Shown here piece after piece: positions 15,592-63,640 of a DNA stretch of 64,000 bases. Positions within the stretch are counted from its first letter, which is position 1; each line of letters opens with the position of its first letter. This DNA is from Diplolepis rosae (Eukaryota > Arthropoda > Insecta > Hymenoptera > Diplolepididae): the NCBI GenBank assembly GCA_030998225.1, contig JAPYXD010000456.1:60778-124777 (forward strand), given 5' to 3'. The notes beneath the pieces were generated by a model. It was not told the DNA's origin and searched no databases. It was given only the letters and a program-made list of their open reading frames with translations. Position numbers and translations under genes: made by a program.

Positions 15592-15668
15592 AGACCCGTC
15601 CTAGGAGAGTCCTGTACAACGTCTATAAAAGATTTAGCCATTTTTCCTCTTCACCAAGAAAAAAAAAA
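15592..15668 (+). other. LINE 3' end with A-run
   Basis: Continuation of the LINE 3' untranslated region after the hAT-like insertion; ends in an A-run directly before the right target duplication at 15,669-15,682. Confidence 0.75.
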
Positions 15669-15682
15669 GTGATTCTGTTTCA

Positions 15683-15960: not shown

Positions 15961-15984
15961 CATTATTGTATAAAATGTGACTTC

Positions 15985-16297
15985 GTAGGTTTGCAATGAT
16001 TCCTCTTTTTTTTAAATTTTTATAATTTTGTTCAATTTCTATTTTTTCAAAAGTGTATTTAATGTAAACAATCGTTAATTTGAAGCAGTTTAATTATTTA
16101 ATCAACCAATGTAATTATTTAACTAATTTAGAAATATTTTAATATTTTGAATGAAGGAGGTGTATAGGTTTATTATTTTCTAAGAAGGTTATAAATAATT
16201 ATAAAAGTAACAGTTTTAATGAAATCTCAAAATTTATTAAATAGGCAGAAGAAAAAACCTTTTCTGATATTAATAGGAGTTATAATATAATCATTCA
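15985..16297. other. AT-rich spacer
   Basis: Between the relic Cys-rich ORF and the end of the BEN-domain gene. It should contain that gene's 3' untranslated region and polyadenylation signal; no other feature seen. Confidence 0.4.
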
Positions 16298-24086: not shown

Positions 24087-24088
24087 TA

Positions 24089-25232
24089 TGTACTACTTCT
24101 CCTGCAATAATAGACATGTATCCTGGACCTTTCATCAGATCGTAGGCACATTCCTCAGGTGCTTGAGTTGCTATAATTAAGGAATTTTTGAAGATTCGTT
24201 GTTCAAGCTGACACTTATAGGTGTCATGATACAATTTACTCATTTCTCCGAAAATGTGTCTTTCGACATAAATGAATTTTGAATTTATATATGTAAAAAG
24301 GGCCATATTTTCAACTAATAGTTGTTTATTTTCCAAAAATGTATTCCTCGAGTAGTTTCGAAAATCAATAATTTTGGATGTTCTGTACGTACTAAAACGT
24401 AGTTACACAGAGGTTGCATGGCTTTTTGAGCTAAAACTAAAATTATATCATTGGTAGTTAGGGAGTATATAACTTGCGGGTTAAGAGTTGAATTATCATA
24501 CGTTTTATTTGCTGATCCTTCATATAGCACTGTATATTTTTGAAAATTACAATTGTCGTTGGGTAATGGATTCCGAAAAGTTTGTCCACCTCCTAGTTCA
24601 TCAGTACACGTAGTATCAGAGAGTGAACAAATTACTTCAGATTTTACATGAATTTTGTCTGTATTTATATTGATTGTTGCTTGGTATTCTTGTAGGGTTA
24701 TTCTGTATTTTGCATATGCAATAACGTTTTCCCATGTTCCAGAAAGATCAAAATATTGTGATCCTGAGCATTGTCCATTGACTTGTGTAGATCCTGCTAA
24801 CATTATAGCATGTGAGGAAGTTCTATTGATTTTTAGACCAGTTATTTGTGTATTTAGGGAGACTAAAAATACTCCAGTTTCATGCATTTTGCTACATTGA
24901 TCTTTAGACACTTCTTGGATGTATTCTCTGTATTCGTTAATAACGGCTGATGTGTGAGAGTGCATTCCACCATATTCAATTTTTCTGTCTACTTCTACTT
25001 TACATTGAATAATTTTTGTCAAGGTAAAGTCACTTAATTGTAAAAGTTGAAGGTATATTTTTTCTACTTGTACCTGAGCTTCTGGAATATCGCATTCTCC
25101 TACCTCCAGTAAAGACAATGTTGTTATATTCAGGTGATTTTTCCCACAGTCATATCCAATGATGGCGTGTACTGTACCACTCCAAAGTAAAAGGCAAAAG
25201 ATGTTGTAGATTTTCTTGACTTTTGGTTTCAT
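24089..25232 (-). pseudogene. Relic jingchuvirus-like envelope glycoprotein, N-terminal part
   Basis: From the ATG at 25,232 there is a hydrophobic signal-like start, then IIGYDCG, NITTLSLLEVGECDIP and many Cys and N-x-T/S sites, matching the ORF at 51,788-52,285 over its whole length. A frameshift near 24,335 and the foldback at 24,086 end it. A splice acceptor (TTTTACAG) sits three bases upstream of the ATG. Family: class III-type glycoprotein of chuvirus relatives captured by LTR elements. The gene is dead. Confidence 0.75.
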
Positions 25233-25320: not shown

Positions 25321-25600
25321 TAGTTGGGCATATCTAGGATGTCGGCTAAAAATTCTTGATCGGATGGTCGTAAGCTTTTTAGTGAATATAATATGCGTAA
25401 GGTCCTCTTCTTTTGATTGTTAAAATTATGTCTTTGATTATTTCTGGATTTGTTATATCTGAAGACCAATGTGGTACGTTGCAATCATCATAATTAAATA
25501 TTTCATTTATGAATAAGTATGGCCATAAGGCTTTCATATCAATTGGACGAACGATTAAATCACATAATAAATCAATGCGTTGGCGATGTTTTGGTTCCAT
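25321..25600 (-). pseudogene. Relic CARD-only protein
   Basis: Homologue of the intact CARD ORF at 52,435-52,716 in the same position between integrase and env. Shared features: the first-helix HRQRID, ALWPYL, NYDDCNVP-type turn, a helix of KDI..TIK then RGP-x-AY, and, after one frameshift near 25,380, SLRPSD...LADILDM. The ATG at 25,600 follows a splice acceptor (GATTGCAG). The pattern of residues kept between the two copies suggests it encoded a folded protein when active. Confidence 0.7.
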
Positions 25601-25649: not shown

Positions 25650-27363
25650 GGTTGTTGGTGGCGTTATACACGAAAGTCTGAGTCTATTAATATTAACGAT
25701 TTTAGGTTTATTTTTAACTGAAATTTTTATGTTTCCTTTGCCTAATATTTCAAGTACTTCGTATGGTCCTGAGTATTGATTTTCGAATTTCTTTAGTTCT
25801 CCACCTTCCAGTAAAAATACACTATTTCCGATTTTAAAATTTTGTGAATTAATTTTTCTGTCGTAATATTCCTTTTATTTTTCTTTAGTTGTTATTAAAT
25901 TTTGTCTTGCTATTCCACGCATTTCATGTAATTTTGTAATTAATTTTGTCATATACATATCGTAAGTTTCCATTTTTTCGTGTTCTGGTAAAGGATCGCC
26001 TGATGGTAAACGTGCTAATTTTCCAAAAACTAATTCCAGTCATCCCATTCTGCATTATTTTCGATAAATTGTTTAAGATATTCCTTAAGAACATGATGGG
26101 ATCTTGCCAATGATCCGTTTGATTGAGGATGATAAGCAGTATCTGCTCCTTGATCTGTTAAAACCGCTTTTGGCGAGCCATATATGCTAATAAATTTCTT
26201 AACAAAAGCATCTGCTATTCTTCCAGCTTGATGATTTGGAAGTGGAATTGCTAAAGAATATTTAGTAAAATTACCCTGAATTGTAAGTATATACTGATTT
26301 TGTGCTGAAGTTATTGGTAGCTTTCCAACAATATCCATTGATATTTTTACGAATGCGGTTCCTGGGGTATCAGTAATTACCATGAGGTTTTTTGTTTTAA
26401 CTCTTACAAGTTTTTTAAGTTGGCATTGTAAGCAAAGTTGTATGTATTTTTGTATATCTAATTTCATGTTTCGCAATAATATCTTTGTCTGATTCTATTA
26501 TAAGTCTTTGTTACTCCTTTATGTCCTCCAATAGCAGATGAATGAGCTTCTTCAATTAGTTGATTTCTTTGCTTTTTTGTAGGGTATTGTGTGATTAGAT
26601 TACAAATTATTATTTTAATTGTAGAATCCAAAAATGCTATTTTTAATGTAGCCAAAATTTCTTCCCACAAAATATTGTTAATGTGTGGTGATTTCGCAAT
26701 ACTAATTGATTTAATATTTAATTCTTTTACCATGGAATGAAGAGAATAAATCGCTAATTTAATATCTTTAGTAGTTTCTCCTAGACTTGTCTTAAATTCG
26801 TCTTCGATTGTAAGTATAAAATGGTATTGATTTCCTTTACGTAATTTTTGGACTATTCCTTTTTGTAAATTTTTAAAATTAGGTTATTTTCCACATTTTT
26901 CCAAAAGTTTAGAGCCTATATCGCGAGGTTCTCCTTTATTGCTTACAAAATATGCATAATTATCTCTTCTCATCGTTAATTGGTCGCGGCATTCAATTAT
27001 ATTCTTTTGTGTCTTAAAAAATCCGGATGTTGAAGGTTGATCAGGGGGTGGCTCTGGGGGTGGTCTTTCTTCTGTAAAATCGCAATCATCAGAGTTTTCA
27101 GAATTCCTTATTTCTAATCTGTCCAAGTGCTCATTCTCACTTCCATTTCCTTCGTTCTGGAAATTTTCCTGTGTTTCTTTTTCTTCACCTGCACTTGATA
27201 AGTCAGAATTTGATTCAAAATAACATTCTTCTTTAAATTCTTCTTCTTCATTTTCCTTAAGGTAGTTGTCGTGCCAAAAATCAGTCTCTGGAAAAAGAAG
27301 TTTTTCTATGATTTCAAGACTGGTAATTATATCATCAGCCGTGTCATATGTAAGGAAAGACAC
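25650..27363 (-). pseudogene. Relic Gypsy pol: acidic linker and integrase
   Basis: 27,363-26,884 encodes a Glu/Ser-rich region, then PPPEPPP and ECRDQLTMRRDNYAYFV, matching the linker of the younger copy. 26,733-26,030 is integrase with the HLIEEAHSS-type zinc region (EEAHSSAIGGHKGV), the first catalytic Asp (SMDIVGKLP) and the second (LTDQGAD). Residues between the second Asp and HPQSNG are deleted. The expected catalytic Glu in SLERSHH is Ala (SLARSHH). The C-terminal chromodomain-like/GPY region decays from 26,030 to about 25,650. Nothing upstream (RT, gag) is present. Confidence 0.8.
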
Positions 27364-30369: not shown

Positions 30370-31444
30370 TCATTTTCGAATTAGTTCTCCTAACAAACAT
30401 TCCCGAAAAAGCGTTCGAAATGCCATTGGATTCTACACATTTTGCCCATCTTTTAGGCAAAACATGGATACCATTCCAAAAAAACTTTTTCTCTTTCAAG
30501 GCAAACCATTCGACGAGCCATTTTTCGACTTCTTCAAAATTGGCGAAGCGCTGCTATGCGAGTGAGTGTCCCATCGATGCGAAAAGGTGATAGTCGGACG
30601 AGGCGAGGTCTGAAGAGTACGGCGGGTGCGATAATATTTCCCAATTCAATGCTTTTAATGTGTTCTTCACCACTTTAGCGGTATGAGACGGTGCGTTGTC
30701 ATGTCGTAGGATAACTTTGCCATGTCTTCGGGCCCATTCCGGCCGTTTTTCGATCAACGCATGATTCAAATTGATAATTTGTTGTCGGTAGCGATCCGTA
30801 TTCACCGTCTCACCAGGTTTTAATAACTCGAAGTACACCACACCACACTGGTCCCACCAAACACAGGGCATTGTCTTACGGCCAAAGCGATTTGGCCTTG
30901 GAGTCGATGGGCCGACCTCACCCGGTGAAAGCCATGATTTTTTCCGCTTCGGGTTCTCGAAATAAATCCATTTTTCGTCCCCCGTGACAATTCGATGCAG
31001 AAAAGATTTCCTTTGGAACCGTTGAAGCAGCATTTCACAAATGGTTTTTCGATTTTCCATTTGTCTATCGTTCAGTTAGTGTGGTACCCATTTTCCATAC
31101 TTTTGGATTTTTCCCATGGCTTTTAAACGTTGGCAAATTGCTCCTCGGGTCATAGTTAGTGTCTGTGCCAATTGCTGTTGCGATTGGGTTGGGTCTTCAT
31201 CCAATAACACCTGCGATTTCTGGTCTTCGAACTTTTTCGCTGCACCAGGATGTTCATTGTTTGTTAAATCGAAATCTCCACTTTTAAATTGACGAAACCG
31301 TGGCTCACATGTTCTAATCACTGGAGCATGTTCACCATAAGTTTCTAGCAGCAATCGATGAGCTTCAACTGCTTTTTTCTTTTGATGAAATAAGAAAAGC
31401 AACGAATGCCGCAAACGCGATTTACTTGGAAAGAAACTCGACAT
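30370..31444 (-). pseudogene. Mariner transposase, dead
   Basis: A full-length mariner transposase (DD34D, cut-and-paste transposition at TA). The start MSSFFPSKSRLRHSLLFLF and helix-turn-helix region are recognisable, as are GDEKWIYFENP (first Asp), HDNAPSHTA (second Asp) and SSDYHLF (third Asp). A TAA at about 31,074 follows KWVPH, and a frameshift near 30,555 shifts the C-terminal tail, which then runs to a stop at 30,370. All three catalytic Asp codons are kept. Confidence 0.85.
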
Positions 31445-31619
31445 ATTCACTGAGGTAAACAACTATGATGCTATTATTTTGGCAGAGTGTAATTGTGTAT
31501 TTTTGAAGGTTATTGTCCATGGAAAAATATGACATAGATGCCAAATCATAGAAATGTATACATGTCTCTAGCGACATCTATGAGTAAAACCGGTAAATTT
31601 CAACTAACACCACTGGTAT

Positions 31620-44844: not shown

Positions 44845-45696
44845 TGTTACGTCACAAGTACGCAAATATACTTACTTTGATCGAAGATTCCTCGTTTTAA
44901 GTTAGGATCGAATGATCCTCGCTTAGGGATGAGGATAAGTCAATGAAAGATACAATAATTATGAAAATAATACAAATTGAATTTATTTTATTGGTTAAAA
45001 GGTCAGAATACACATTCGTTAAGACAATTCTTATATAATGTAGGCACAGGCTGGTTGGTACGTGGGTGAGAAAGAGACAAAGAATAAAGATAGAGAGAGA
45101 GAGGTTCGGTACCTTTATGATTCGTAAGTTGTGTTGAGGTTTAATCCACACGGCGGTGAGTTGTAAGTACTGGATCCCCACAGGTGTATTCCAAGTGTGT
45201 GAGAGAGACGGAGTTATAGGCCGCACAGGTATATTCCGTAAAGGGCGGTGATTCAAATTTACGACACTGTTCGAAGATCTTTACAAGATCTATTCAAGTC
45301 TACGATGACTTTTACGACTCCCGAACTTTGATTTTAAATTGTCCCGGTCGAATTTTATTAATCTCAAACTCAGAGATTTTCGAAGTTAAATTGAAATGCC
45401 GCACTGGACTATTGTCGCGAGACCGGTTATAAATCCGAAGGAAAATTTATACGTCGAACTAGACGAAGAATTTACTGACTGCTTTCTCTTGGTGTGGGCC
45501 TCTTTTATATTTTTTCATACAAATTGACGGTCAGCGAAAATCGTGACGTAGTCATATCTTCTTAGAGGAGAAGGGGCCCTATACTGCTCCCTACTTCCCC
45601 TACTCCCTATTCCCCTTTATCGATTTTCTCATAGATTTCTAACTCAAACCAGACTGTGTGTATTATATACATTCAAATACGTCGCGGGACGTGACA
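44845..45696 (-). repeat. 3' LTR
   Basis: 852 bases. On the minus strand it starts TGTCACGTCCCGCGACG directly after the polypurine tract and ends GTGACGTAACA. It holds a GTAAGTATAT splice-donor consensus close to its end, as in the other LTR. The open frame inside it on the minus strand is present in both LTR copies but has no recognisable domain. Confidence 0.85.
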
Positions 45697-46700: not shown

Positions 46701-47063
46701 TTATTCGTTTTCCGCGTTTGCTAACTCAAAGAGATATTCAGTGCAAAGAAAACATTGGTCTGCTCTGAAACGTATGAAAAAAATTTGCTCTTCGCAGACA
46801 GAACATTTTAATTCGTTAAGATCCGTGGTTACAATGTGGCGGTTAAGGAAAGGTACAGATATTTCTGATTCAAAAAAGGTAACTTTAAATCTGTAACATT
46901 CTTTGCATATGAATTTTTGATCTAAAGTATTCTGATATATTTCGTTTTCTGGAGAGTAACAACAAAAATGTTTCATAATTATTTGATCGATATACGGTTG
47001 GTAGTACTGTTCGTCGTTTTCTGGATTTTCGGCTTGAATGGATTCAAAATCTTGAGGCAGCAT
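46701..47063 (-). CDS. Accessory ORF E: Cys-rich protein
   Basis: 120 residues from the ATG at 47,063, four bases after an acceptor (TTTGTTATAG). Cys pairs at FCCYS, CKEC, CSVC and CFLC suggest two zinc sites. No homology recognised beyond loose similarity of Cys spacing to ORF D, so the two may be old duplicates. The relic element at the left has no visible copy. Function unknown. Confidence 0.6.
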   Translation of the reverse strand: MLPQDFESIQAENPENDEQYYQPYIDQIIMKHFCCYSPENEIYQNTLDQKFICKECYRFKVTFFESEISVPFLNRHIVTTDLNELKCSVCEEQIFFIRFRADQCFLCTEYLFELANAENE

Positions 47064-47184: not shown

Positions 47185-47592
47185 TTATCGAAAAACGTTT
47201 TCAACTATAACCTCATTTCCTAATTGAAGTTGCATTTTATTTTTTAAGAATTGCTCAGTACAACCTTTACAGTCGATTGCCCTACAGCGTGGCGTTATTA
47301 ATGCTTCCCTACAACCGTTACAATTCATATTAACGCATTGTATTTTACAAACTGAGTGCCATGAGGTACAGAATTCGTATTTATTTTGTTCTGTTATTAG
47401 TAATTTTTCGAAACAAAATTGGCAAAATTTCTTTGTTGTTTCCTGACTGTAATAAATGAATAAGGTTGACGCTTCTAAGTCGAAACAAAAACTATTTATT
47501 AAATGTCCATAGGTGATTGGATAATCCTGTGGACATACACCGTCCACAGGTCCTGAGTGGAACACGATTGGTTCTGCCGCAGTCGGAATCAT
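47185..47592 (-). CDS. Accessory ORF D: Cys-rich DGVCPQDYP protein
   Basis: 135 residues from the ATG at 47,592, one base after an acceptor (AAATTTATAG). It carries DGVCPQDYP, then CQFC, a C...H...C...C stretch, CNGC and CKGC, up to four potential zinc-binding pairs, resembling but not matching RING or B-box patterns. A relic homologue split by the LINE exists at 15,960/7,630. Its conservation across two copies argues for a real protein. No transmembrane segment. Function unknown. Confidence 0.65.
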   Translation of the reverse strand: MIPTAAEPIVFHSGPVDGVCPQDYPITYGHLINSFCFDLEASTLFIYYSQETTKKFCQFCFEKLLITEQNKYEFCTSWHSVCKIQCVNMNCNGCREALITPRCRAIDCKGCTEQFLKNKMQLQLGNEVIVENVFR

Positions 47593-48331: not shown

Positions 48332-48916
48332 TTACATATGGTTGGATTTAGGTCTAGAAGTTTTTTGGAAAAAAGGGGAAAATAGATTACTAAATGTTGA
48401 GGAGTTTCGTGGTGGAAGTGGAGGGGGAACTTGTGTTGATTTATCAGCTTTAAAAACATTCCGTCTACGGCACTCTTTTGTAGCATGCATTTGAGTGTTA
48501 CAATATCTACATGAATTTTTCCATGTTACTAATTTTGGTCTTGGATCAGTTTGAACACTTTGATTCTTCGTTTTTTTTGTTTCTTTACATTTATTATTAT
48601 AAAAATCCTCATCGCAAAGATCATAAGATCTTATTAATATTTGTAGTAATTTTAAAGCAGCTCTATTTTCGGCTAACTCGCTTGTAGGACCCGCTTGTAC
48701 AGCAAAATGATCGTTTGTATTAACTTGAGCAAGAAAAAATGATTTGGTTTTTGAATTTGGATCAGGATAAACGATGTATTGTGGTAACGGTAATCCATAT
48801 TTTATCGTAAAATTTCTCAAAATTTCCACGTGGTTTAAAAGTCCCAGAGAGTCTGTTCTACATATCTTTTTTTTGTAACTTCGCACGTGGGTAGGCTCAT
48901 CATAGTAATGCTCCAT
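48332..48916 (-). CDS. Accessory ORF B: dsRBD, CCHC knuckle and PPPLPPR motif
   Basis: 194 residues from the ATG at 48,916. Residues about 40-100 form a dsRBD: LPQYIVYP, FFLAQV, then AGPTSELAENRAALKLLQIL, where the glycine and alanine positions fit the fold but the KKxAK lysines are replaced by acidic/neutral residues. A CCHC knuckle follows (CRYCNTQMHATKEC). The tail has PPPLPPRN, a proline motif of the SH3-ligand kind. The acceptor upstream (GATTGAG) is weak. Intact frame. Inferred: RNA-binding accessory factor. Confidence 0.7.
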   Translation of the reverse strand: MEHYYDEPTHVRSYKKKICRTDSLGLLNHVEILRNFTIKYGLPLPQYIVYPDPNSKTKSFFLAQVNTNDHFAVQAGPTSELAENRAALKLLQILIRSYDLCDEDFYNNKCKETKKTKNQSVQTDPRPKLVTWKNSCRYCNTQMHATKECRRRNVFKADKSTQVPPPLPPRNSSTFSNLFSPFFQKTSRPKSNHM

Positions 48917-48953
48917 TATAGATGATGTCCTCAATCAGTATGGAATATTTATA

Positions 48954-49685
48954 TTAGAATTTATTGTACTGATTGGGGGGTCTATATCCGCATTTAAAAC
49001 ATTTCTTAAAGCTTTTTCCAGAAAAAGGCGATGTAGTAGAAGTATTATTTCTTTTTATTTTATAAGGATTTATATTTTTAAAACGACTGTTAATATTAGG
49101 TTTTGTTATCTGACCACTCGTTGAAGGTTTTGGATCATTTATAAGTGATTCCTGGATTGTAACATGCAAATGTTCTAATGAGTTTATTAAATTTACTTCA
49201 CATTTTTTATCTTTTTGCAAAAGAGAATTTATCGTTTTTATAGCTGCGAAATCCATTGCTGTTTTTATTGTGTTTCCAATTCCTATTCGTTTGATATCAT
49301 TAATAAAACAAATTGCTATGTATGTTGAGTTTTTTGATGAAGTTTTTACTCGTAATACTGTATATTTTGGATACTCGATTTTATTTTGAGTGCAAATTTC
49401 GTTTAAGTTTTTGAAATTTTTACCAATAGAATTCGGTTGGACGTTTTCATTTGTTTCCTTTGATTCATTAATTAAGGCGTTATATAAATTTTGTGCTACC
49501 TTTTGCTTTACGTTTTCTTTATCTTTGCCACTATTCATTATTATATAATTGTTATATTGTAAATTAACGTGAAATAGACATTCATTATTATTGGTTTGTT
49601 CAATGAGTATCTCATAAATGAGGGGTGGATCTCCTCTTTGTTGAATAATTTTGTTTAGTAAGGTTGTGAAAGGAACATGCGACAT
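48954..49685 (-). CDS. Accessory ORF A: tandem dsRBD protein
   Basis: 243 residues; the ATG at 49,685 lies 12 bases after the env stop. Two successive dsRBD-like domains: about residues 12-68 (PPLIYEILIEQ ... KVAQNLYNALI) and 97-157 (YPKYTVLRVKTSS ... TAMDFAAIKTINSLL). A half knuckle (KCFKCGY) lies near the C-terminus, truncated compared with ORFs B and F. The relic at 20,344-20,691 keeps the first domain. Tandem dsRBDs occur in RNAi cofactors and viral RNAi suppressors; binding is likely, role inferred. A short AACATCTTAAAG acceptor candidate precedes the ATG. Confidence 0.75.
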   Translation of the reverse strand: MSHVPFTTLLNKIIQQRGDPPLIYEILIEQTNNNECLFHVNLQYNNYIIMNSGKDKENVKQKVAQNLYNALINESKETNENVQPNSIGKNFKNLNEICTQNKIEYPKYTVLRVKTSSKNSTYIAICFINDIKRIGIGNTIKTAMDFAAIKTINSLLQKDKKCEVNLINSLEHLHVTIQESLINDPKPSTSGQITKPNINSRFKNINPYKIKRNNTSTTSPFSGKSFKKCFKCGYRPPNQYNKF

Positions 49686-49696
49686 TCTTTAAGATG

Positions 49697-52285
49697 TTAG
49701 ATTCGGATTGAATAATGTGATCTACTAAGTTCTTCTTTTAGTTCAGAGTGAGGATAAAGAGTAGTCTTCGTACTATTATGATCTTTACCTGAATTGGTAT
49801 TTTCGTTAGGAGTTGAACTTTTAGTTTCCTCTATGGAGTTTTGTGGTGCTGAAGCTGTTAGCAGAAGTTGATGGCTTTCAGCAGGAGGTCCAGTAGGTTG
49901 ATGGATACCTAAGTGTAATAAAAGGTTAGTGACCGAATCCCAGAAGGCGCCTAGTAAATGGAGAGACCATCCAAATAATCTATGTAATGCATAACCATGA
50001 ATAATGGTATCTGCTATTAATTTGATCCCTCTAATTATTATAATTAATCCAATTAGACCTGCACTAGTAGTACCGAAATTTGTAAAAACTGTCCAAAATC
50101 TACCCCAAGCTGATTCAGCAATTTTATCAATTACTTCTTGGTTAAATAAATTTGTCAATGATATTCCTTGATTAATAGTCGGATGTCCTGTTATTTCTCT
50201 AGCTAAAGAATTTAAAATCATTGGTTTTTCTGCTGGGAACATTATATGATCTCGTAGCTTATCAAGGTCAGATTGAGAATAAATGCCACTTGTTGCTAAG
50301 GATGAAGGATTTGTGTATTTCCAGGTTGCTTTTGTGAGAGGTTTAACTATAGTTGGTGCTATGGATTCGACAGGATTTGGAAGTAATTTGTACCAGGTTT
50401 CTCCAAAAAGGTACATTGGTGGAAGGAAAGAATTGCAATTTGTTTGGATACCTGATTTTGTTAATATATGAGTTCGTGGAGAAAGAAAAAAGGATTGATT
50501 TCCTCTAAATATTGGTAGTTGTAGATAACATTCTTCAGTTTTGCGATATTTTACTTCAACCGGTATACATTTTACGATATGTACTACTTCTCCTGCAATT
50601 ACTGACATATATCCTGGGCCTTTCATTAAATGATATGCAAATTCGTCTGGTGATTGGGTTGCTAAGGTTAATGTATTTCTAAAAACTTGCTGTTCAAGCA
50701 TGCATCGTTGAGTAAGAACATCGTGATAAAGTCTATTTACTTCAGTGCGTATGTGTCGTTCTACATATATAAATTTAGAGTTGACGTATGTGAAAATGTC
50801 CATATTTTGAACTTCTAAATGTTTATTTTCTAAAAATGAATTCCCAGGTCTGGTTTCAAAAATTAATAATTTTGGATGTTCAGTTTGTATTAAAACGTAA
50901 CTGCAAACTGGTTTTCTTGTTTTTTCAGCCAGTACAAAGGTTATATCTTCAGTCGTTAAAGAATACAAGGTTTCAGAAATGTCTGTCGTGTTGTCATATG
51001 TTTTATTTGCTGGTCCTTCATAAATAATTTCATATTTGTTAAAATTACATACGTCATTAGGTAATGTATCCCAGAATGTCTGTCCATATTCTACGTCTGT
51101 ACAGAATGTGTCTGAAAGTGTGCATATTATTCCAGATCCTAATTGAATTTTATTTGAATTTAAATGTAGTCGCGTAATGTTCTTGTAAAGTTATTTTGAA
51201 TATTGCTTGGACTACGACATTATTCCATGTTCCATCCCTAGCGGACCCGTGTGAGAGAACGGTCATAGAATACTCTGACCGTTCTCTGACTGTTCTATGA
51301 CCGTTCTATGACCTCGTATTATTACGGCTAAGATCGGTAAAAAAGACATTAAAAGCTTTGCAATTATGATTCTGTGGCGAAATTTGGATTAGAAGGTGAA
51401 GCAATAAATACAATTATCTTATTTTTCAGCGATAAAAACTAGAAAAACATAATACCTGTCATTGAAGGCAGTGCAGTGGTTCACAATTGGCGGAACCTCT
51501 CCACCGTGAAGGTTTACTATTGGTGGGCACGTTCCGCAAATGGTGAACCACTGCACTGCCTTCAATGACAGGTACATGATGTATTCCTAGTTTTTATCGC
51601 TGAAAAATAAGATGATTGTATTTATTACTTCACTTTCTAATCCAAATTTCGCCACAGAATCATAATTGCAAAGCTTTTAATGTCTTTTTTACCGTTCTTA
51701 GCCGTAATAATGCGAGGTCATAGAACGATCATAGAACAGTCAGAGAACGGTCAGAGTATTCTATGACCGTTCTCTCACACGGGTCCGCTAGGGATATGGG
51801 TCAGAAAATTGTGTACCAGTACAGTCTCCATTAGGTGTTACAGAACCTGCTAAAGTAACGCTATGAAATGAAGTTTGATTTACTTTTAACTTTGATATCT
51901 GAAGAGAAGGGGTTACTAAAAATGTTCCTATTGTGTGCATTTGATTACATTGATCTCGTGTAACATCATGTATATATTCACTGTGGCCATTTGCAACTAT
52001 GGAACTGTGAGAATGCATACCACAATGAGAGATGGCGCGTCGAATTTCTATTTTGCATTGTATTACTTTTGTATTTGAAAATCCAGTTAATTGTAAAAGT
52101 TGTATATAAACTCTTTCAACATGTACTTGAGATCGAGGTAGATCACATTCTCCTACCTCTAGTAAAGATAATGTCGTAATATTTGATTGATTTGAACCGC
52201 AATCGAATCCTATGATGGCGTAGACTGTTGTTATATAGTTGAATTTGCAAATGAGCAGTGCCAAAAGGAAGCCTCGTAATCCCAT
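49697..52285 (-). pseudogene. Envelope glycoprotein, jingchuvirus-like, interrupted
   Basis: The ATG at 52,285 lies two bases after a strong acceptor (CCTCCTTTTTCCAG). A signal-peptide-like start of ~22 residues is followed by IIGFDCG, NITTLSLLEVGECDLP and many Cys and N-glycosylation sites. A palindromic MITE (51,236-51,793) interrupts at residue ~165, and a frameshift near 51,165 follows. The second half (to 49,697) has the conserved PGYMSVIAGEVVH and LSPRTHILTKSG segments, then a membrane-spanning helix (LIGLIIII) and a Thr/Asn-rich tail. Order and motifs match glycoproteins of chuviruses and their captured relatives in arthropod LTR elements. It would act in cell entry if intact; this copy cannot. 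Confidence 0.75.
51236..51793. mobile_element. Palindromic MITE inside env
   Basis: 558-bp near-perfect palindrome starting CCCTAGCGGACCCGTGTGAG, with repeated GTTCTATGACC/GTTCTCTGACC words near the ends and a second inner inverted repeat around 51,450-51,580. AT occurs on both sides (51,234-51,235 and 51,794-51,795); removing the element with one AT leaves the env frame continuous. Confidence 0.85.
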
Positions 52286-52434: not shown

Positions 52435-52716
52435 TTAGTCTATAATATCCAACATGTCAGCTATGACAATATGATCTGATAGGCGTAAACTGATAATCAA
52501 GTTTTTGTATGCGTCTGGTCCTCTTGTTTTGATTGTTGAAAAAATGTCTTTTATTGTATCTGGATTGTTTAGGTTTTTGCTCCATGTGGGAATATTACAG
52601 TCGTCTTGGTTAAAAATTCCAGTTTGAATTAAGTATGGCCAGAGAGCTACCATGTCGATAAAACAGGGAACTATTTCAATGAGATCATCTATGCGTTTGC
52701 GATGAATTTGATCCAT
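52435..52716 (-). CDS. CARD-only protein between integrase and env
   Basis: 93 residues, intact; the ATG at 52,716 lies five bases after a splice acceptor (TTATTCCAG). The whole protein fits one caspase-recruitment domain: helix 1 HRKRIDDLIEIV, helix 2 MVALWPYLIQTGIF, the turn with DD-C, helices 3-4 NPDTIKDIFSTIKTRGP, helix 5 AYKNLIISLR, helix 6 IVIADMLDI. The RGP-x-A-Y/F motif is characteristic of CARDs of initiator caspases and their adaptors, such as insect Dronc. No other domain is attached. A relic homologue sits in the same place at 25,321-25,600. CARDs act by homotypic binding; a CARD-only viral protein would be expected to block or divert apoptosome assembly. That role is inferred, the fold is fairly sure. 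Confidence 0.8.
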   Translation of the reverse strand: MDQIHRKRIDDLIEIVPCFIDMVALWPYLIQTGIFNQDDCNIPTWSKNLNNPDTIKDIFSTIKTRGPDAYKNLIISLRLSDHIVIADMLDIID

Positions 52717-52939
52717 TATATCTGGAATAATGTGTTATGTCTAAATTTTTTGTATATATTTTTTATATAAAATATATATTTTTATATAAATTTTTTATAT
52801 ATGTATATTTTTATTTTTTTTTTATTTTTACCATTTATCGACAAAATAAAATTTCTATATTTTATTTAAATTGTATATGTATACATATTTTTTATGATTA
52901 AAGTAAAGATATTTTGTTTGCTATTTTTTTTTTATTTAT
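52717..52939. other. AT-rich spacer with CARD splice acceptor
   Basis: The acceptor lies at 52,722-52,723. The rest is TATATATTTTT-type sequence with nothing codable. Confidence 0.5.
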
Positions 52940-54154
52940 CTACATTTGTACTTGTACGTGTGAGCATTTTAGTCTATTAATGTGAACTACAGTAGGTTTG
53001 CCTTTATAGCTTATTTTGACATTCCCTTTTCCTAACACTTCCAACATTTCATAAGGCCCTGAATAATGGTTCTCTAGTTTTTTTATTTTACCTCCTTTTA
53101 ATAAAAATACGTTGTCTCCAATTTTTACTTCTAAAGGATTTATTTTTTTATCATAATATATTTTCGATTTTTCTTTTGCTGAAATAAGATTCTCTCTTGC
53201 TTGTGTTCGCATTTCGTGTAGTTGAGTTACGAAATTAATTAAATAATCATCATACGTTTGTAATTTTTCTTGTTGTGATAAAGGTTCGCTGGAAGGTTCA
53301 CGAGCTAATTTACCAAAAACCAATTCATAGGGTGTGCATTTTGTGCCTTCATGTACACTAGTATTATACGAGAACATTGCTAGTTCAAGCCAATCATCCC
53401 ATTCTGAATTTTTTGCAACAAATTGTTTGAGATATTCTCCTAAAACATGATGTGAACGTTCTAATGATCCGTTTGATTGAGGGTGAAAAGCTGTGGTACG
53501 AAATTGTTTAATTCTAAAACGCTTTGCCAATCTTTTTAATCAATTACTTAAAAAATCTCTGCCTTGGTCAGTAAGTACTCCTTTTGGTGATCCAAATATG
53601 CAAATAAATTTTTTCACAAAAGCATCTGCTATTGTACTAGCTTGGTGATTAGGAAGAGGTATTGCTAAAGAATATTTGGTAAAATTGTCTTGTATCGTTA
53701 GAATATATAAGTTACCGGATTTTGTTTCAGGTAGTGGGCCAACAATGTCCATTGATATTTTTTCAAAAGCAGTAGTGGGTGTGTCTGTGATTACCATAGG
53801 ATTTTTTGTTTTGACTCTGATTAATTTTTTCAGTTGACATTGTAAACAGCCTTGAATATATTTTTGAATGTCTACTTTCATATTTTCCCAAAAAAATTTT
53901 TGGCGAATTCGGCTATAAGTTTTTGTAACGCCTTTATGGCCTCCTAATGCCGAAGAATGAGCTTCTTCAATTAAATGAGTTCGTTGTTCCTTTGTTGGAT
54001 ATTGCGTTATTCCATTGCAAACTATAATTTTTGTAGTTGAATTTGAAAAAATTGAATTGAACATTGATTTCACTTCTTCCCAAGGTATATGATTAATTCT
54101 GGAAGTTTTTGAAATACTAATTGATCGTAATTTAAATTTTTTGAGATAATTCAT
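52940..54154 (-). pseudogene. Gypsy integrase region of pol
   Basis: The N-terminal zinc region (HLIEEAHSSALGGHKGV ... CLQCQ) is followed by the catalytic core: first Asp in SMDIVGPLP, second in LTDQGRDF, Glu in GSLERSHH, all present. A GPY-type C-terminal module (HYSGPYEMLEVLGKG) ends near 52,940. An in-frame TGA at 53,537 after LSN splits the core, and the frame changes at about 54,140 relative to the upstream linker. The enzyme inserts cDNA into host DNA. Family membership is secure; the copy is inactive. Confidence 0.85.
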
Positions 54155-55584
54155 GTAATGAGTGAATTGATAATTTCATATTATTTAAAGTTTCTGATAA
54201 ATTGTCCTTAGTTTCTTCTTCAATTGGAAGTGCAAAATGGTAGTAGTTTCCTTTTTTAATCTCTTTTGCTATTCCCTTTTGTAAATTTTTAAATTTTGGT
54301 AATGTTTCACGTTTTTCTAAAGTTTTTGATCCGTTGTCGCGAGGAGTTCCATTTGTTGTAACAAAGTATGCATAATTATCTTTTCGCATAGTTAATTGAT
54401 CGCGACATTCAACTAAATTTTTCCTTGTTATAATTTTTTCTGTTTGAGAGTTTATAGGAGGAGGTTCTGGGGGTGGACGATTATAATTATCATGATCTTT
54501 ATCGATTTTTTCACAATTTATTTGAGATCTTCGGTTTAATCTCAAATTTTCTTCAAAATAAGGCTCTTCAAATTCTTCTTCCAATTTTTCTTCTTGGTTT
54601 TCTTCAAACTTCTCTTCAAAATTCTGTTCAAAATTCTTTTTGAAATTTTCGTCAAAATCTTCTTCAAAGTTATCTTCCAAATTTTCTTCATATTTTTCTT
54701 CATCCTTTTATTTCGTGTGTGGTTTCAATGTCGTTGATTTCATCTTCTGAGGTTGAGAAATAATTTTCACTTTCTTCACTTTCAAATTCATTAATATTTT
54801 TTTGCTTTTTGGCATTCTTCTTTTTTCTGTTTCTTGCTTGAGCTTGTTTTAAATAATCTGAATAATCAGGGTCAGAGTCGGAATCTGATTCTACTTTTGT
54901 TCGGCTTCCCATTTGCATATTTATTTCTGGTAATTCGTTTTCAAATATTTGTTTTCTTGGCCTACCTCTCTTTCTTTTTGTTTGAGAGGGAATATTTTTT
55001 AAATAGGTAAGTAGATTTTTTCTTGGCCTACATCGTGATTTTTTCACAAGAGGTTTAGAACAAAAATTTTTGTCTAATTTTTCTTGAGTTTCATTTTGAT
55101 CCACATTTTTTGCTTTTTCTTGCTCTATTCTCTCTTGAGCTCTTGTAGTAATAGTTTTCCATGATAAATTTTCGTATTTTTTGGGAAACATTGGACTTAA
55201 TAAAAATATTGTCATAAAAATAAGTCTTGAAGCCATATTTTTGAATAAATTTGTGTATTTTAAAATATTCTTACCAATCTCACCAAATGATTCTTCACTA
55301 AGGAATTCTTGTAAAAATTCTGGAATTTTTGTGTCAATATTTAATATTTGGGCTTCTGGGATTTCGCTAAAATGATCTACGTCGTCTGGTACCATTCCTG
55401 GATTCAAGTTTTTTCGTTTTAAAGGTCTTACCTTATTTTTAGAGTTTTCTTGTTTATTTCTTGTAAAAGTTTTCTTGGAAATTGTTTTTTCTTGAGAAGT
55501 CATGAAAGTATCATTGTCATCAACTTGTAAATATTTTGATTTTTCCTGGCTATCATCAATAGGGTTTCTTGAGAGCGTCTGCAT
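54132..55584 (-). pseudogene. Pol linker between RNase H and integrase with AT-hooks
   Basis: Two consecutive frames. The first (55,584-54,700) begins in the RNase H tail (LSRNPIDD) and contains two AT-hook-like motifs, KSRCRPRKN (about 55,018-55,045) and KRKRGRPRKQ (about 54,950-54,980), plus an acidic Ser-rich end. The second (54,680-54,132) starts with a Phe/Glu repeat (NFEEKFEENQEE), then PPPEPPP and ECRDQLTMRKDNYAYFV, conserved in the relic at 26,884-27,363. A frame break lies at about 55,575 (apparent 2-base loss in a CTCTC run) and another between the two frames. AT-hooks bind the minor groove of AT-rich DNA; a targeting role is a guess. Confidence 0.65.
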
Positions 55585-57562
55585 TTACATTCATTTTTCC
55601 TGCTTTGTAAATTACATCAAAATCATATTCTGCGAGTTTCAATCTCCAACGTGAAACTCGTGAACAGGGGTCTTTAGAATTTTGAAACCAAACTAGAGGT
55701 TTGTGATCAGTCACTAAAGTACATTTTCTTCCGTACAAATAAGGACGAAAATGAGTTACACAAAATATTATAGCACGAGCTTCTTTTTCATATGTATCAT
55801 ATTTTTTCTCAGTATCACTTAGACTACGTGAAGCATATGCTATTGGTTTATCTTTACCTATTTTACCTTGTGATAAAATACCTCCTATTGCAAATCCTGA
55901 GGCATCTGTTATGAGTATAAAGGGTTGAGAAAAATCAGGTCGTTGTAAAAGTGGTTCTTCACATAACTTTGCTTTTAAAATATCGAAAGCTGCTTGTTGT
56001 TTTTCTGTCCAATTAAAAGGTATATCTTTTTTCAGAAGTTGATTTAAAGGACTTGCAATTTTTGAAAATCCATCAATAAATCGTCTATAATATCCTGCTA
56101 AGCCTAAAAATTGTTTAACATTTTTCTGTGTTTTTGGAATTGGAAAGTTTTTTACAGCTATTATCTTTTTTGGATCTGGACGTACTCCATTTTTATCAAT
56201 TATATGACCCAAATATCCTACTTCAGGTCGTAAAAATTCGCATTTGTCTGGTTGTAAGTGAAGATTTGCTTTTCTAAGTCTTTCTGCTAAATTATTGAAT
56301 TTAATTTCGTGCTCTTCTAGAGTATTTGCATATATAACTATGTCGTCAAGATATACAAAAAGTTCCGTTCCGATTAATCCAGTTAATGTTAAATCCATTA
56401 ATCTCTGAAATGTGGCTGGTGCAGTTTTTAAACCGAAAGGCATTCTATCGAATTCGTAATGACCGTGAGGTGTGGAAAATGCGGTTTTATGAGAGTCTTT
56501 TGGGTCCATTTTTATATGGTGAAAACCGGTAGCTAAATCAAACACTGAAAAATATTTTGCTGATCCTAGAGAATCAAGTATATCGTTTATATTAGGTAAA
56601 GGATACGAATCGCCAATTGTTTTTTTATTTAATTTACGAAAATCAAGAACCATTCTCCATTTTATTTTTCCTTGGGAATCAGGTTTTTTAGGAACTATCC
56701 ACACTGGAGTGTTATATGGTGATTGTGAGGGCTTGATTATTTTATTTTTTAATAATTCATCGACTTGTCTTGTAATTTCTTCCTTGTGAACTGGGGGAAA
56801 TCTATATTGTCTTGAAAAAATTGGAGCGTCATCTACAGTAGGAATTGAATGTTGTAATACATTAGTAGCTTCAAGTGGTTCTCCTGGGATATTAAATCTG
56901 TCTGCATTATTTTTAATTAATTTTTCTACATGTTCATATTCATCTTGATTCAAGTGGTCTAATCGAAGAAGTTTTTTAATACATTCTACTCTGTCTTCGT
57001 CTGTTACATTATAAAATTTGCATGAGTTAATTAGAGAATTGTCAGTTTTTAAAAAGTTATTTAATATTTTACTTGATAAATCTTCGTTATTTGTTTGTTT
57101 TAAATTAATTAAATTTTCAATTTGTTTATAACATTCTTGTTCTTCAAAGTCTTCTAAATTAACTAATGGAACGGATAATGTAATTGGGATTTCATTTGTG
57201 TTTGCAAATTTTAAATAAGCTTTTCCTCTGTGGTTTTTTACAACTGCGTCACCTACGTAGACGCCATCTTGGATATGTAATCGAGGTACATACGCTTCAC
57301 TCTTTTCTGTATTTTTTATATTAACATAAAATGTTGTAACTGTTCGAGCTGGAATCGTAAATGTATTGGCAGATTTAAAAGGGTAACAGTGGTTCTCAAT
57401 TTCTAAGCATTTTGAAGTATAGTTTATATTCACACTATTATCTTGAAAAAATTCTGATCCTAATACTCCATCTTCTTCTACTGGGACTTCATTGGGAATA
57501 ATGTTAAATATCGTTGGATAACCAAAAATGTTTATTTTTACCTGTCCTAACGTGTAAAGTGG
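55556..57562 (-). pseudogene. Gypsy pol: protease end, reverse transcriptase, RNase H
   Basis: From the edge of the MITE the frame gives the protease C-terminus (VLGSEFF), then RT with WRMVLDFRKLN, DLATGFHHI, FGLKTAPATFQRLMD and the catalytic YLDDIVIY (about 56,334-56,357), then RNase H with TDASGFAIGG and TDHKPLVW. These are complete and typical of the Ty3/Gypsy group. The frame ends at 55,556 by a small deletion just where RNase H joins the linker. RT copies RNA to DNA and RNase H removes the RNA strand. Confidence 0.9.
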
Positions 57563-58743: not shown

Positions 58744-59041
58744 AATCATTAATTCCTGTAAGTTTCAATACGTTTTGGCTATTTATGGGTACTTCAGGGT
58801 TGAGAACCTTTTGTTTAATTAAATTTCGAGCAGCACCAGTATCAATCATCATGTGTGTTGGATTTTTTAGACCTTCCGTTGATATTATAATTGGTGGAAT
58901 TGAAGTGGACTTTGAAATATTTATTGTTGTTGTTGTATGATCGTTAGAAGTGGATGCCAGTGGTTTTCGATTTATTCTTTCCTCAGTGCACCCGTGCTGG
59001 GGAGAGCTTTGGAGTTTTCCTGATGAGCTGTTTGTGATTAG
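58744..59041 (-). pseudogene. Protease N-terminal part
   Basis: The frame opens at 59,041, overlapping the gag stop (59,038-59,040) by a few bases in the -1 frame. It contains the aspartic-protease active site MMIDTGAARN (about 58,820-58,850) before the transposon interrupts it at 58,743. It would be made as a Gag-Pol fusion by frameshifting or readthrough; no canonical slippery heptamer is seen at the very short overlap. Confidence 0.75.
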
Positions 59042-60843
59042 TTATTTGGTCGTATCTTGCAGTCTCGCACTAAATGACCGGGTTGTTTACAGTAATTGCA
59101 AATTGTTTCAGTATAATTTGAATTTTGTTGAGTGTTATTATTTTGTAAAAATCTATTTTCATATGGTTTATTTCGATTTTGAAACTGTCCTGAGTTAAAG
59201 TTTTTATACTGTCCTGGATTCAATTGTCTATTAGTATTATTAACATTATTGTTATTATTGTAAAAATTTCTAGGAAAATTATTATTATTGTTGTATCTTT
59301 GTTGTAAAGAATTATTATTATTGTTTCTATAATTGTTATTTCTATTTTGTAAAAAATGATTGTTGTTATTATTAAAGTTATAATTTTTATTTCTTAAAAA
59401 ATTGTTATTTGGAACATTATTGTAATTGTTTTTTGCAAAATTATTATTATTATTACTTCTTTGACCATTGAAATTACTATATCCTTGTTGGTTAGGATGC
59501 AAAAATTTTTTTTGTTTATTGTTAAGAACTGCATCTTGAGCTTTACTTAAATGAAAATATTTTTCAGTTGTGTGACCTGGTTTTTTACAAATTAAACAAA
59601 TAGTTTTATTTTCAAGTGCTACGTTGAATCGGGTGGTTTTATTATTTTTATTATTATTAGTTGATTCTTCGGTTTTTAAATAATCAGTATTTTTATTTCT
59701 TCGCAGTGCAGAACTTGCAGCCAATCTTCGTTCTATGTCTATCGTATCATTAATTACTTCCTTAAATGTGTCCTTTTCTTCCACACAAATTTCTAAATCA
59801 GGACGCAAACCGCGTATAAAACATTGAATTACATCTCTTTCTAAATTTTGTTTAAAAGCATTATCTACCTGACCGTCATTATTAAGTCTGTGAGCATCTT
59901 CTATTCTATCAGCAATTTCTTTAATTCTAGCAGCATAGGAAAGGACATTTTCTCTTTCCCACATAAATGTATTACCTAATTCTCCCTGCAATTGATATAC
60001 GCTTTTCGCAGGGGCATATACTCTTTTCAATTTTTCTATTAATTCCTCTATTGTTGCATACGTTGACCCAAAAATACATTTTCGTGCCTCACCAGACAAT
60101 TTACCTCTCAATAGACGTGCAAGATTTTCTTGGGCAGCAGGTGTCGGCAGCATTGCCTTTGCTTCCATGCAACCCTCAATAAAATGGGACAATGGGAGGT
60201 TACTTCCGTCGAACAAAGGGACCACCTCTAGCGCGTCGCGTAAGGATACCTGCTGGCTGTTAGGTATGGCTACGGCCATCTCTTCGTTGCTTACTATTAC
60301 GGGATTATCCTGATTTATGACTTCTGTATCGCTTTTGTCGTCGTCGCTATCGTTGTTACTAATTAGAGAGTCGCGTGCCAATGAGGTTTTCAATTTTTCA
60401 TTCAAAGTTCTTTTTTCTATTGTTATTACCGTTGAGCTTAGCAAATTAGATCCGTCAAAATAAGATAACTCGTTCGTTAAAGTTTGATCTTGATTACTAG
60501 ATCCTGTCACAATGCTCAAATCTGTACAGAAACTTGAATGAAATCCGCTAGTATTACTAGAATTTTCACTTGATATGGTTTGATCATTAATTAGAGTCTT
60601 GTCGAAACATGAATCGTCTAGCTGAAGAGTGTTATCTAATTCTTGTTCAGCAGAAAAAGTGTTTGAAATATCCTTGTATTTATTATAATCGACTAAATTT
60701 TCTTTGATTTTACCTGATCTTTTTAGTTTCAAGGAATCTATTTGATTCTGATCGACAATTTTTGCGAGTTGATTGTCTTGTTTTGCTTTACTACGCGTAA
60801 TAACTTTTTGGGCGGATTCTACAGGGGTATTTGAATTTGACAT
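59038..60843 (-). CDS. Gag polyprotein
   Basis: 601 residues, intact. An acidic/Ser-rich N-terminal third precedes the retrotransposon gag core (about residues 195-375, with VPLFDGSNLPLSHFIEGC, LLRGKLSGEARKC, LKRVYAPAKSVYQLQGEL). Two knuckle-type zinc sites follow: CLICKKPGHTTEKYF, whose last Cys is Tyr, and a complete CNYCKQPGHLVRDC at the very end, separated by an Asn-rich tract. Gag builds the particle and packages RNA. The long Asn run (about 59,230-59,480) may be repeat-expanded. It is the only large ORF of the element without a visible break. Confidence 0.9.
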   Translation of the reverse strand: MSNSNTPVESAQKVITRSKAKQDNQLAKIVDQNQIDSLKLKRSGKIKENLVDYNKYKDISNTFSAEQELDNTLQLDDSCFDKTLINDQTISSENSSNTSGFHSSFCTDLSIVTGSSNQDQTLTNELSYFDGSNLLSSTVITIEKRTLNEKLKTSLARDSLISNNDSDDDKSDTEVINQDNPVIVSNEEMAVAIPNSQQVSLRDALEVVPLFDGSNLPLSHFIEGCMEAKAMLPTPAAQENLARLLRGKLSGEARKCIFGSTYATIEELIEKLKRVYAPAKSVYQLQGELGNTFMWERENVLSYAARIKEIADRIEDAHRLNNDGQVDNAFKQNLERDVIQCFIRGLRPDLEICVEEKDTFKEVINDTIDIERRLAASSALRRNKNTDYLKTEESTNNNKNNKTTRFNVALENKTICLICKKPGHTTEKYFHLSKAQDAVLNNKQKKFLHPNQQGYSNFNGQRSNNNNNFAKNNYNNVPNNNFLRNKNYNFNNNNNHFLQNRNNNYRNNNNNSLQQRYNNNNNFPRNFYNNNNNVNNTNRQLNPGQYKNFNSGQFQNRNKPYENRFLQNNNTQQNSNYTETICNYCKQPGHLVRDCKIRPNN

Positions 60844-61859: not shown

Positions 61860-62689
61860 TGTTACGTCACAAATACGTAAATACTTACTTTGATCGAAGA
61901 TTCCTCGTTTTAAGTTAGGATCGAATGATCCTCGCTTAGGGATGAGGATAAGTCAATGAAAGACACAATAATTATGAAAATAATACAAATTGAATTTATT
62001 TTATTGGTTAAAAGGTCAGAATACACATTCGTTAAGACAATTCTTATATAATGTAGGCACAGGCTGGTTGGTACGTGGGTGAGAAAGAGACAAAGAATAA
62101 AGATAGAGAGAGAGAGAGGTTCGGTACCTTTATGATTCGTAAGTTGTGTTGAGGTTTAATCCACACGGCGGTGAGTTGTAAGTACTGGATCCCCACAGGT
62201 GTATTCCAAGTGTGTGAGAGAGACGGAGTTATAGGCCGCACAGGTATATTCCGTAAAGGGCGGTGATTCAAATTTACGACACTGTTCGAAGATCTTTACA
62301 AGATCTATTCAAGTCTACGATGACTTTTACGACTCCCGAACTTTGATTTTAAATTGTCCCGGTCGAATTTTATTAATCTCAAACTCAGAGATTTTCGAAG
62401 TTAAATTGAAATGCCGCACTGGACTATTGTCGCGAGACCGGTTATAAATCCGAAGGAAAATTTATACGTCGAACTAGACGAAGAATTTACTGACTGCTTT
62501 CTCTTGGTGTGGGCCTCTTTTATATTTTTTCATACAAATTGACGGTCAGCGAAAATCGTGACGTAGTCATATCTTCTTAGAGGAGAAGGGGCCCTATACT
62601 TCCTACCCTACCCTATACCCTACTTCCCCTACTCCCTATACCCCTTTATCGATTTTCTCATAGATTTCTAACTCAAACCAGCCTGTGTT
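61860..62689 (-). repeat. 5' LTR, truncated at its outer edge
   Basis: Nearly identical to 44,845-45,655 with a few substitutions and one short CCCTA-rich insertion. After CCTGTGT (about 62,689) the outer ~40 bases present in the other LTR are replaced by unrelated DNA. Contains AAAGTAAGTATTT on the minus strand (GT at 61,887-61,888), a consensus splice donor ~28 bases from the LTR end. Confidence 0.8.
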
Positions 62690-63640
62690 TTTTTTAAATT
62701 CGCGCCAGCTCGAAAGAGATCGTGCATGTCTTTCGCATGTCTGTTCGCTTTTTTCTAGGTCGGTAATAGTGAAACCTGTCCATATTTAATTTTAAATATG
62801 GTACAGGTTAGGTTTTCAAATGTAATTTTTGAAAAAATATTAAAATTAAAAGTGTCATGTTTTAAAAATATTAGCGAAAGTGGGGCACAATTTTAAACAA
62901 CAGTGAGTGAATTTATTATTCAAACACACAAGTGTAAATAGTTGAAAATTGGAACCAAGTTTGACAGCAAGAAGCTCACCTTTGTAGTGAGTGATAAAAA
63001 TAATAAATTTTAAATAAATAAAGAGCTTTGTTGCTCTAAAAGATTGTTACGGCATGGAGAATGGTAAGATTTTAAATCTCTATGATAAAAAATATTGAAT
63101 ATTTTTTTAATATAAAATTTTCAATTACAACAATATGTTTTAAATTTTCAGAAAAATACCTACTCACTTCAAATGAAGTTAAAAAAAAAAAAATTAAAAA
63201 TTTTTAATTTGACGGGAAATTCAGATAAGTAATTTTTATTTCACTTTAAATGATATTCTTGAAAAGAGACGTTTACTTTGTGAAATGGATTTTTTCTTTT
63301 TCAGGAAGAGTCAAAAATGAAGCAAGTGGGAAAAATAAAGGATTTAAGAACTAAAATTGTGTAGGTATTTATGTTACTTATAAGTTGCAGTAGCAAAAGT
63401 ACATACATAATAATGTAAAAATAGTTTGAAATATCTTAGAAGCTAAACTTTATAATTTATCATTCTGAACAAAATATCAAAACACTAACTGATGTTTATG
63501 TAATCAAATCCTCAATAGCCATTGATTATTGTAAAAATTGTTCCCGGGACTAAAATAAAGGTTTCAAAATTCTGTAAACTGGCTCAGGAGTCTACGTTCA
63601 TTTATTCTGTTAGTTCTTATACTAAAAAGTTGTAAAAAAT
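62690..63640 (+). other. Splice-flanked mini-exons of a possible gene
   Basis: ATGGAGAATG|GTAAGA at about 63,054-63,068 looks like a start exon with donor. TTTTCAG precedes a Lys-rich segment at about 63,152-63,206, and another TTTTTCAG at about 63,305 precedes 50-60 bases ending TAG|GTATTT. Frames are short and broken. Upstream DNA has a GTCGGTAATAG...CCTGTCC promoter-like region but no clear TATA. It may be the start of a degraded gene or of a transposon-borne gene. Confidence 0.3.
63437..63535. repeat. Direct repeat, copy 1
   Basis: AGAAGCTAAACTTTATAATTTATCATT ... CTGATGTTTATGTAATCAAATCCTCAATAGCC matches 63,799-63,895 with differences. Also precedes the mariner-like TTCCCGGGAC word at 63,540. 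Confidence 0.7.

Follow-up and report, generated by a model that had tools for sequence, protein, structure and literature searches.

A retroelement bounded by LTRs in the genome of Diplolepis rosae carries, between its integrase and env genes, a small gene that is, judged by sequence profiles and predicted structure, a stand-alone CARD. The gene belongs to the element and is under purifying selection. By profile comparison, its nearest sequence relatives are the CARDs of initiator caspases. On balance, we lean slightly towards a role as a CARD-only decoy that would act on the host apoptosome and block caspase activation; both the binding partner and the direction of the effect are inferred. 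The DNA analysed here (the window) is a stretch of 64,000 nucleotides, and the features of the element and of an older relative in it are collected in Table 1.

The element and its gene content

The element that carries the CARD gene is ~17.8 kb long and lies on the minus strand. From 5′ to 3′ it encodes a gag-like protein, reverse transcriptase (RT) with RNase H, integrase in two ORFs, the CARD, env, two dsRBD-like ORFs and two Cys-rich ORFs. LTRs, gag, RT–RNase H followed by integrase, and env are all present, as in env-bearing Metaviridae (Gypsy), and by domain type and gene order the predicted RT, RNase H and integrase fit Gypsy/Metaviridae. The two LTRs align over 839 columns with 10 substitutions at 821 compared sites (K2P 0.012), several of the differences lying at the alignment edges; this small divergence marks a young insertion. 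The probable primer-binding site TGGTGCATCGGCCGGGAA is presumably complementary to the 3′ end of tRNA-Gly. Assignment to the Troyka LTR elements was rejected: the LTRs end in ...GACGTAACA, not in the CG...CG termini given for Troyka elements (PMC12440569).

The window copy is damaged: its integrase is spread over two ORFs, and its env is broken by a fold-back stretch of ~560 nt. Seven other copies (L001–L007) are without these ~560 nt, as the spacing of their two env pieces indicates; in the eighth (L008), no match to the second part of env was seen. The env is of Monjiviricetes type (52285–49697 in the window) and sits inside LTR-bounded elements with Gypsy-type domains in many copies.

A third ORF with a dsRNA-binding motif, beside the two of the young element, falls within the older copy's region (6447–5974; PF00035 1.9e-5). 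These ORFs could be suppressors of RNA interference. The two Cys-rich ORFs of the young element and one of the older copy (15996–15634), with paired CxxC, resemble a small element gene family that is much diverged between subfamilies. The structure model of the first was useless (pLDDT 38.5), and the best Pfam match of the second reached only E 0.59.

Table 1. Features of the CARD-bearing element, in its 5′ to 3′ order, and the CARD of its older relative (window positions)
Feature	Position	Strand	Evidence and remarks
5′ LTR (extent aligning with 3′ LTR)	61860..62696	-	pairs with 44845-45667
Candidate splice donor CAAAGTAAGTAT	61881..61892	-	near 5′ LTR end; motif match only
Probable primer-binding site TGGTGCATCGGCCGGGAA	61828..61845	-	14 nt inward of 5′ LTR
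Gag-like ORF, 601 aa, zinc knuckle near C-terminus	59038..60843	-	PF00098 1.5e-4
Reverse transcriptase + RNase H	55556..57433	-	RVT_1 2e-36, RT_RNaseH 1.9e-36
Integrase, zinc-binding and core part	53540..54154	-	Integrase_H2C2 1.4e-21, rve 4.6e-11
Integrase, rest and C-terminal part	52940..53530	-	Integrase_p58_C 4e-4, under cut-off; adjoins CARD in 8/8 other copies
Acceptor-like TTATTCCAG	52722..52730	-	ends 5 nt before CARD start codon; motif match only
CARD-only gene, 93 aa (predicted)	52435..52716, including stop codon	-	Pfam members, AlphaFold, structure and profile matches
Env, first part, Monjiviricetes-type fusion glycoprotein	51788..52285	-	PF24664 1.3e-53
Fold-back stretch inside env	51234..51795	-	inverted repeat arms 51234-51453/51576-51795, 96%
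Env, remaining part	49697..50968	-	PF24664 8.1e-156
ORF with two dsRNA-binding stretches	48954..49685	-	dsrm (PF00035) 1.4e-12
Second ORF, TTG start, dsRNA-binding-like stretch	48332..48934	-	dsrm 0.0038, under cut-off
Cys-rich accessory ORF, paired CxxC	47185..47592	-	31% identity to older-copy ORF 15634-15996
Second Cys-rich ORF	46701..47063	-	distantly like the first (21% in alignment)
3′ LTR	44845..45667	-	pairs with 5′ LTR
CARD of older, broken relative	25391..25600	-	70 codons, 57% identity, then frame lost

Identity of the ORF as a CARD

The ORF between integrase and env is intact and comprises 93 codons. Its AlphaFold model has six helices (pLDDT 91.4), and the predicted CARD fold spans residues 1–93, with no effector domain. 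The model is a six-helix death fold with CARDs as its nearest structures; the CARDs of caspase-9 and Apaf-1 match best and score about equally. At the level of sequence, diverged members of the family pass the curated Pfam cut-off for PF00619 (23.9 bits), several of them at 26–31 bits. Above it are P0059, P0061 and P0075 (three of the nine family members given) and L037, L044, L045 and L055 (all four element CARDs given, which were chosen from a CARD search).

Could the ORF nonetheless be a false CARD, or a helical ORF without function? By itself it scores 19.5 bits against PF00619, under the cut-off; a phmmer search with it as a single sequence against the PDB ranks a designed repeat protein first, with the MAVS CARD at E 0.66–0.87; and the Foldseek E-values of its model are weak. 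Against this stand the diverged members above the cut-off, the lack of in-frame stops in 141 of the best 150 copies and a dN/dS well under 1, which together refute this explanation and leave it only the slenderest probability. Chance origin of the ORF was likewise considered, its length being reached in 8 of 2000 samples, and was dismissed on homology and selection.

Similarity to initiator caspases

CARDs in the PDB were reached only with the wider family alignment A3; the narrow alignment A1, used as a profile, gave a single PDB match, a designed repeat protein, and no CARD. With A3, 12 distinct sequences matched at E ≤ 10. All 12 are CARDs and 10 belong to initiator caspases, among them caspase-9 (E 0.0013), Dronc (0.0021) and CED-3 (0.0032); the remaining two are NLRC4 (0.71) and NOD1 (1.1). 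Neither Apaf-1 nor Dark is among these matches, an absence that carries no weight. An RGPxAY stretch is common to the element CARD and Dronc in the A3 alignment. By these profiles, the nearest sequence relatives of the element CARD are initiator-caspase CARDs. The profiles favour kinship with the caspases over kinship with Apaf-1, which by structure is about equal to caspase-9. A search of the whole genome with the Drosophila Dronc CARD gave no match anywhere and is uninformative about the host Dronc.

These results partly bear out a preliminary description of this DNA, whose further proposals, capture from a host Dronc- or Apaf-like gene and a block of apoptosis, would go beyond them. It had taken the ORF for one CARD from end to end, as the six predicted helices over residues 1–93 and the diverged members above the PF00619 cut-off now indicate. 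The comparison with CARD profiles and structures that it proposed gave CARD matches from both Pfam and PDB profiles and the predicted structure. It had also named an initiator-caspase type with an RGP-x-AY motif, and the closest A3 matches are indeed initiator caspases, including Dronc, which has the motif in common with the element CARD.

The likeness to caspase-9 has a limit at the level of single residues. The basic residues of caspase-9 that contact Apaf-1, which we take to be R13, R52 and R56, align with I13, P52 and K56 of the ORF in the A3 alignment. Only one of the three positions is thus basic, a point against the proposed decoy, and the protein may bind in another way.

In a library of viral structures, the model of the ORF retrieves iridovirus CARD proteins first (best E 0.19, 11–14% identity), and the search also returns equine herpesvirus E10. 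Viral contigs scanned with the ORF contained four stretches that fit a pattern, none of the four encoding a relative. CARDs can activate as well as inhibit, and E10 activates signalling through a host CARD protein. The element CARD might accordingly nucleate host CARD assembly, for caspase or other signalling such as non-apoptotic caspase signalling. CARDs are assembly modules and E10 is among the viral structure matches, but we regard this activating role as unlikely: an initiator-caspase-type CARD that lacks a protease domain would most simply be a competitor for the apoptosome, and it is on this ground that a decoy is preferred.

Copies, subfamilies and relatives

A search of the 757.7-Mb genome for the CARD ORF returned 1166 candidates, and the best 150, the nearest copies and many of them near-identical, were scored. 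All 150 match at 89–100% identity over 90–93 residues; 63 of the rows, counting that of the window, are full-length with identical protein sequence. The preliminary description would have been refuted by absence of the ORF from all other copies; it recurs in all of these best 150 of 1166. It had further placed the CARD between the integrase and env of a retrovirus-like element, an order seen in the window and in all eight copies whose flanks were compared (L001–L008), with integrase upstream and env downstream of the CARD.

Scanning the genome with the Pfam CARD model, a search independent of the window ORF, gave 57 matches. Thirty-seven were over the cut-off, four of these qualifying only together with in-frame neighbours. 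The best 20 of the 57 comprise 19 element CARDs, at 127–177 bits with a family profile that was itself built from relatives of the window ORF, and one other match (L042); L037–L041 have identical ORFs, so the 19 are not independent cases. At these 20 loci, integrase and env were both found at 13, integrase only at four, env only at one and neither at two (L042 and the element CARD L046). The genome holds several subfamilies of the element, and the diverged ones keep the order of integrase, CARD and env.

L042 (G000:C284:24095373-24095615) scores 29.8 bits with Pfam CARD and is probably a host-gene CARD exon, given its 10.8 bits with the family profile and the lack of integrase or env nearby. 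Its presence provides a candidate for a further reading, in which the element CARD would bind some host CARD or death-fold protein outside the apoptosome, such as the protein encoded by this exon at C284. At E 0.011 with the element-family profile, the exon is no near relative, and we give such a target little credence.

About 5700–33400 of the window is taken up by a relative of the element that is older, broken and cut up by other repeats; ORFs at 30554–31462 resemble, by eye, a mariner-type transposase. The CARD of this relative is flanked by integrase (25681–27063) and env (24086–25175), the same order as in the young element.

Fusions of the CARD to its neighbours also occur. A deletion copy (L057; G000:C357:525850-527150) runs from integrase into the CARD in a single open frame, and the database proteins P0046, P0050, P0094, P0133 and P0134 are other fusions of the CARD to integrase, env or apparent accessory-ORF sequence. 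A role in the element's own particle or replication, in which the CARD would self-assemble or provide Gag, integrase or the dsRNA-binding proteins with a scaffold and would have no host death target, would suit its place among the element's genes, a conservation similar to that of the longer env part, and the single frame of L057. It would also turn the closeness to initiator-caspase profiles into an accident of origin, and we hold it to be quite unlikely, if a shade less so than a host target outside the apoptosome. The decoy on the apoptosome is still preferred.

Relatives extend beyond this genome. With profile A2, 117 were found in a protein database at E ≤ 10, with identity down to 37% and two of them weaker than E 1e-3; profile A3 gave 116, one of them weaker than E 1e-3. 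Most of these matches come from short ENA contigs. Isoforms X5 and X6 of LOC117169146 in the gall wasp Belonocnema kinseyi (P0080, P0081) have 46–47% identity over the CARD. This locus, whose product is annotated as uncharacterized, has isoforms with different ends around the CARD and could be an element copy or an element-derived host gene.

Selection on the CARD gene

Purifying selection on the CARD gene follows from a dN/dS of ~0.15–0.25 between diverged copies, the result of a comparison across element copies that the preliminary description had recommended. Two sets of ORFs were used, and the pairs within these comparisons are not independent. The first comprised 28 fetched copies and the window ORF (29 ORFs, 22 distinct), with 20 copies picked over the identity range. 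Its pN/pS was 0.25–0.27 in the 174 pairs with 10–60 substitutions and 0.49 in the 57 near-identical pairs (<10 substitutions). A lower ratio in diverged than in near-identical pairs is what constraint on active lineages, followed by decay of the inserted copies, would produce.

The second set comprised 16 distinct ORFs from several subfamilies (120 pairs). Three loci whose ORF does not have 93 codons were left out (L050, L051 and L053, the last part of L051 and L053 being out of frame). Median dN/dS was 0.23 in 12 pairs with dS 0.05–0.3, 0.23 in six pairs with dS 0.3–0.8, and 0.15 in 46 pairs with dS 0.8–3.5; five very close pairs had a median of 0.75. Synonymous sites were saturated in 48 of the 120 pairs, for which the uncorrected pN/pS had a median of 0.40. 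Between the window and the CARD of the older copy, dN was 0.33 and dS 1.35, a ratio of 0.25 over 70 codons.

Gene by gene, the window was compared with five subfamily copies that have longer flanks. The CARD differs from the window at 9–11% of residues in the five, with pN/pS 0.22–0.28. The long part of env differs at 8–9%, with 0.20–0.26 in three long matches (one with two stops); L032 has only a short match to it, at 0.75. In the short first part of env substitutions are few, and the ratios are 0.92, 0.50, 2.09 and 0.69 in four copies. For the first dsRBD ORF the difference was 16–22% and the ratio 0.31–0.37 in four copies; for the second, the ratio was 0.21–0.43 in four copies, most of which have stops or gaps in it. 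For the Cys-rich ORFs, each compared in two copies, the difference was 36–37% (0.26–0.28) in the first and 62% (0.47–0.49) in the second; no match to them was found in L033 and L036, and the stretch available for L034 contains no env or later gene. By ratio, then, constraint on the CARD equals that on the long part of env and on the first Cys-rich ORF. Its residues have changed less than those of the dsRBD and Cys-rich ORFs, a contrast that partly reflects age or recombination, since those ORFs also have many more synonymous changes.

Proposed expression and role

Motif matches suggest that the element may make a set of spliced messengers. The candidate donor CAAAGTAAGTAT lies close to where the 5′ LTR ends and recurs in the other LTR, at 44875. 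An acceptor-like YAG lies ≤5 nt from the ATG of the CARD, env and both Cys-rich ORFs, which is four of the six ATG-start ORFs, the corresponding background being 41 of 278 ATGs; none was found within 5 nt of the start of gag, of the first dsRBD ORF or of the TTG-start second dsRBD ORF. The older copy has an acceptor-like TTGCAG that ends 6 nt ahead of its CARD start. The CARD would thus have its own spliced mRNA, running from the LTR donor to the acceptor just ahead of its start codon.

Once made, the caspase-like CARD would occupy the CARD of Dark, the host's Apaf-1 relative, or alternatively would co-assemble with the CARD of Dronc. The initiator caspase would thereby be kept inactive while the element is expressed or is moving between cells.

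A broader picture can be drawn, which we offer as possible but rather more tentatively than the decoy itself. The element may represent an insect endogenous retrovirus lineage that evolved its own elaborate set of genes, comprising a chuvirus-type env, dsRNA-binding (perhaps anti-RNAi) and Cys-rich proteins, and an apoptosome-jamming CARD that would keep infected or germline cells alive. Selection would have maintained the CARD in several subfamilies of a single genome as well as in related elements from other sources.

Large DNA viruses that infect vertebrates are known to encode CARD-only decoys. A selected CARD decoy in a reverse-transcribing element, if true, would mean that retroelements too can manipulate the initiator step of cell death. 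The insect initiator step uses very few CARD proteins (Dark, Dronc), so the target of such a decoy can be named and directly tested. A further question opens to testing: does a transposable element benefit when it suppresses the death of the cells, perhaps of the germline, where it is active?

Comparison with known systems

No CARD gene of an LTR element or other retroelement was reported in the literature searched, most subscription papers lying outside its scope. Nor did such a gene appear in what was searched on insect and viral CARDs, dsRNA binding in Metaviridae, env-bearing Gypsy elements, or apoptosis and accessory genes of insect retroelements. The term CARD has no occurrences in the main texts of PMC7642597, PMC13172572 and PMC12992720, and in PMC12440569 it occurs only inside another word. 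Stand-alone viral CARDs are known.

The nearest functional parallel is with the iridoviruses, which likewise have a stand-alone CARD of ~90 residues in a virus-like genome and match the element CARD in structure. The 91-aa CARD of a grouper iridovirus (a ranavirus) is reported to inhibit apoptosis and to lower caspase-8 and -9 activity (PMC4457926). These are, however, large DNA viruses of cold-blooded vertebrates, whose CARDs are ICEBERG-like according to the authors (PMC4457926) and have 11–14% identity to the element CARD. The latter belongs to a reverse-transcribing element and has a profile of the caspase-9/Dronc/CED-3 type. Like the CARD-only dominant-negative inhibitors (ICEBERG, viral CARDs), the element protein, known here from its sequence, consists of a CARD alone. 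The CARDs of the initiator caspases (caspase-9, Dronc and CED-3) are its best profile matches and among its best structural matches, but the element gene encodes the CARD without a protease domain.

The element itself has several likenesses among LTR elements. Errantiviruses, the env-bearing insect Gypsy elements, share its gag-pol-env organization, with env downstream of integrase. To our knowledge, no errantivirus has a CARD gene. The present element differs from them in its other type of env (PF24664), its CARD, and its two dsRBD-like and two Cys-rich ORFs. A survey of arthropod genomes (2023) noted Gypsy fragments near chuvirus-type glycoproteins in Hymenoptera and no clear evidence of capture by Gypsy (PMC10084718); the present results document a Monjiviricetes-type (jingchuvirus-like) env within LTR-bounded elements with Gypsy-type domains. 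The mosquito element Anakin, described as a BEL/Pao element with a chuvirus glycoprotein (PMC7642597), is also an LTR element with a chuvirus-type env, whereas the CARD element is of Gypsy/Metaviridae type by its domains and carries in addition the CARD, dsRBD-like and Cys-rich ORFs.
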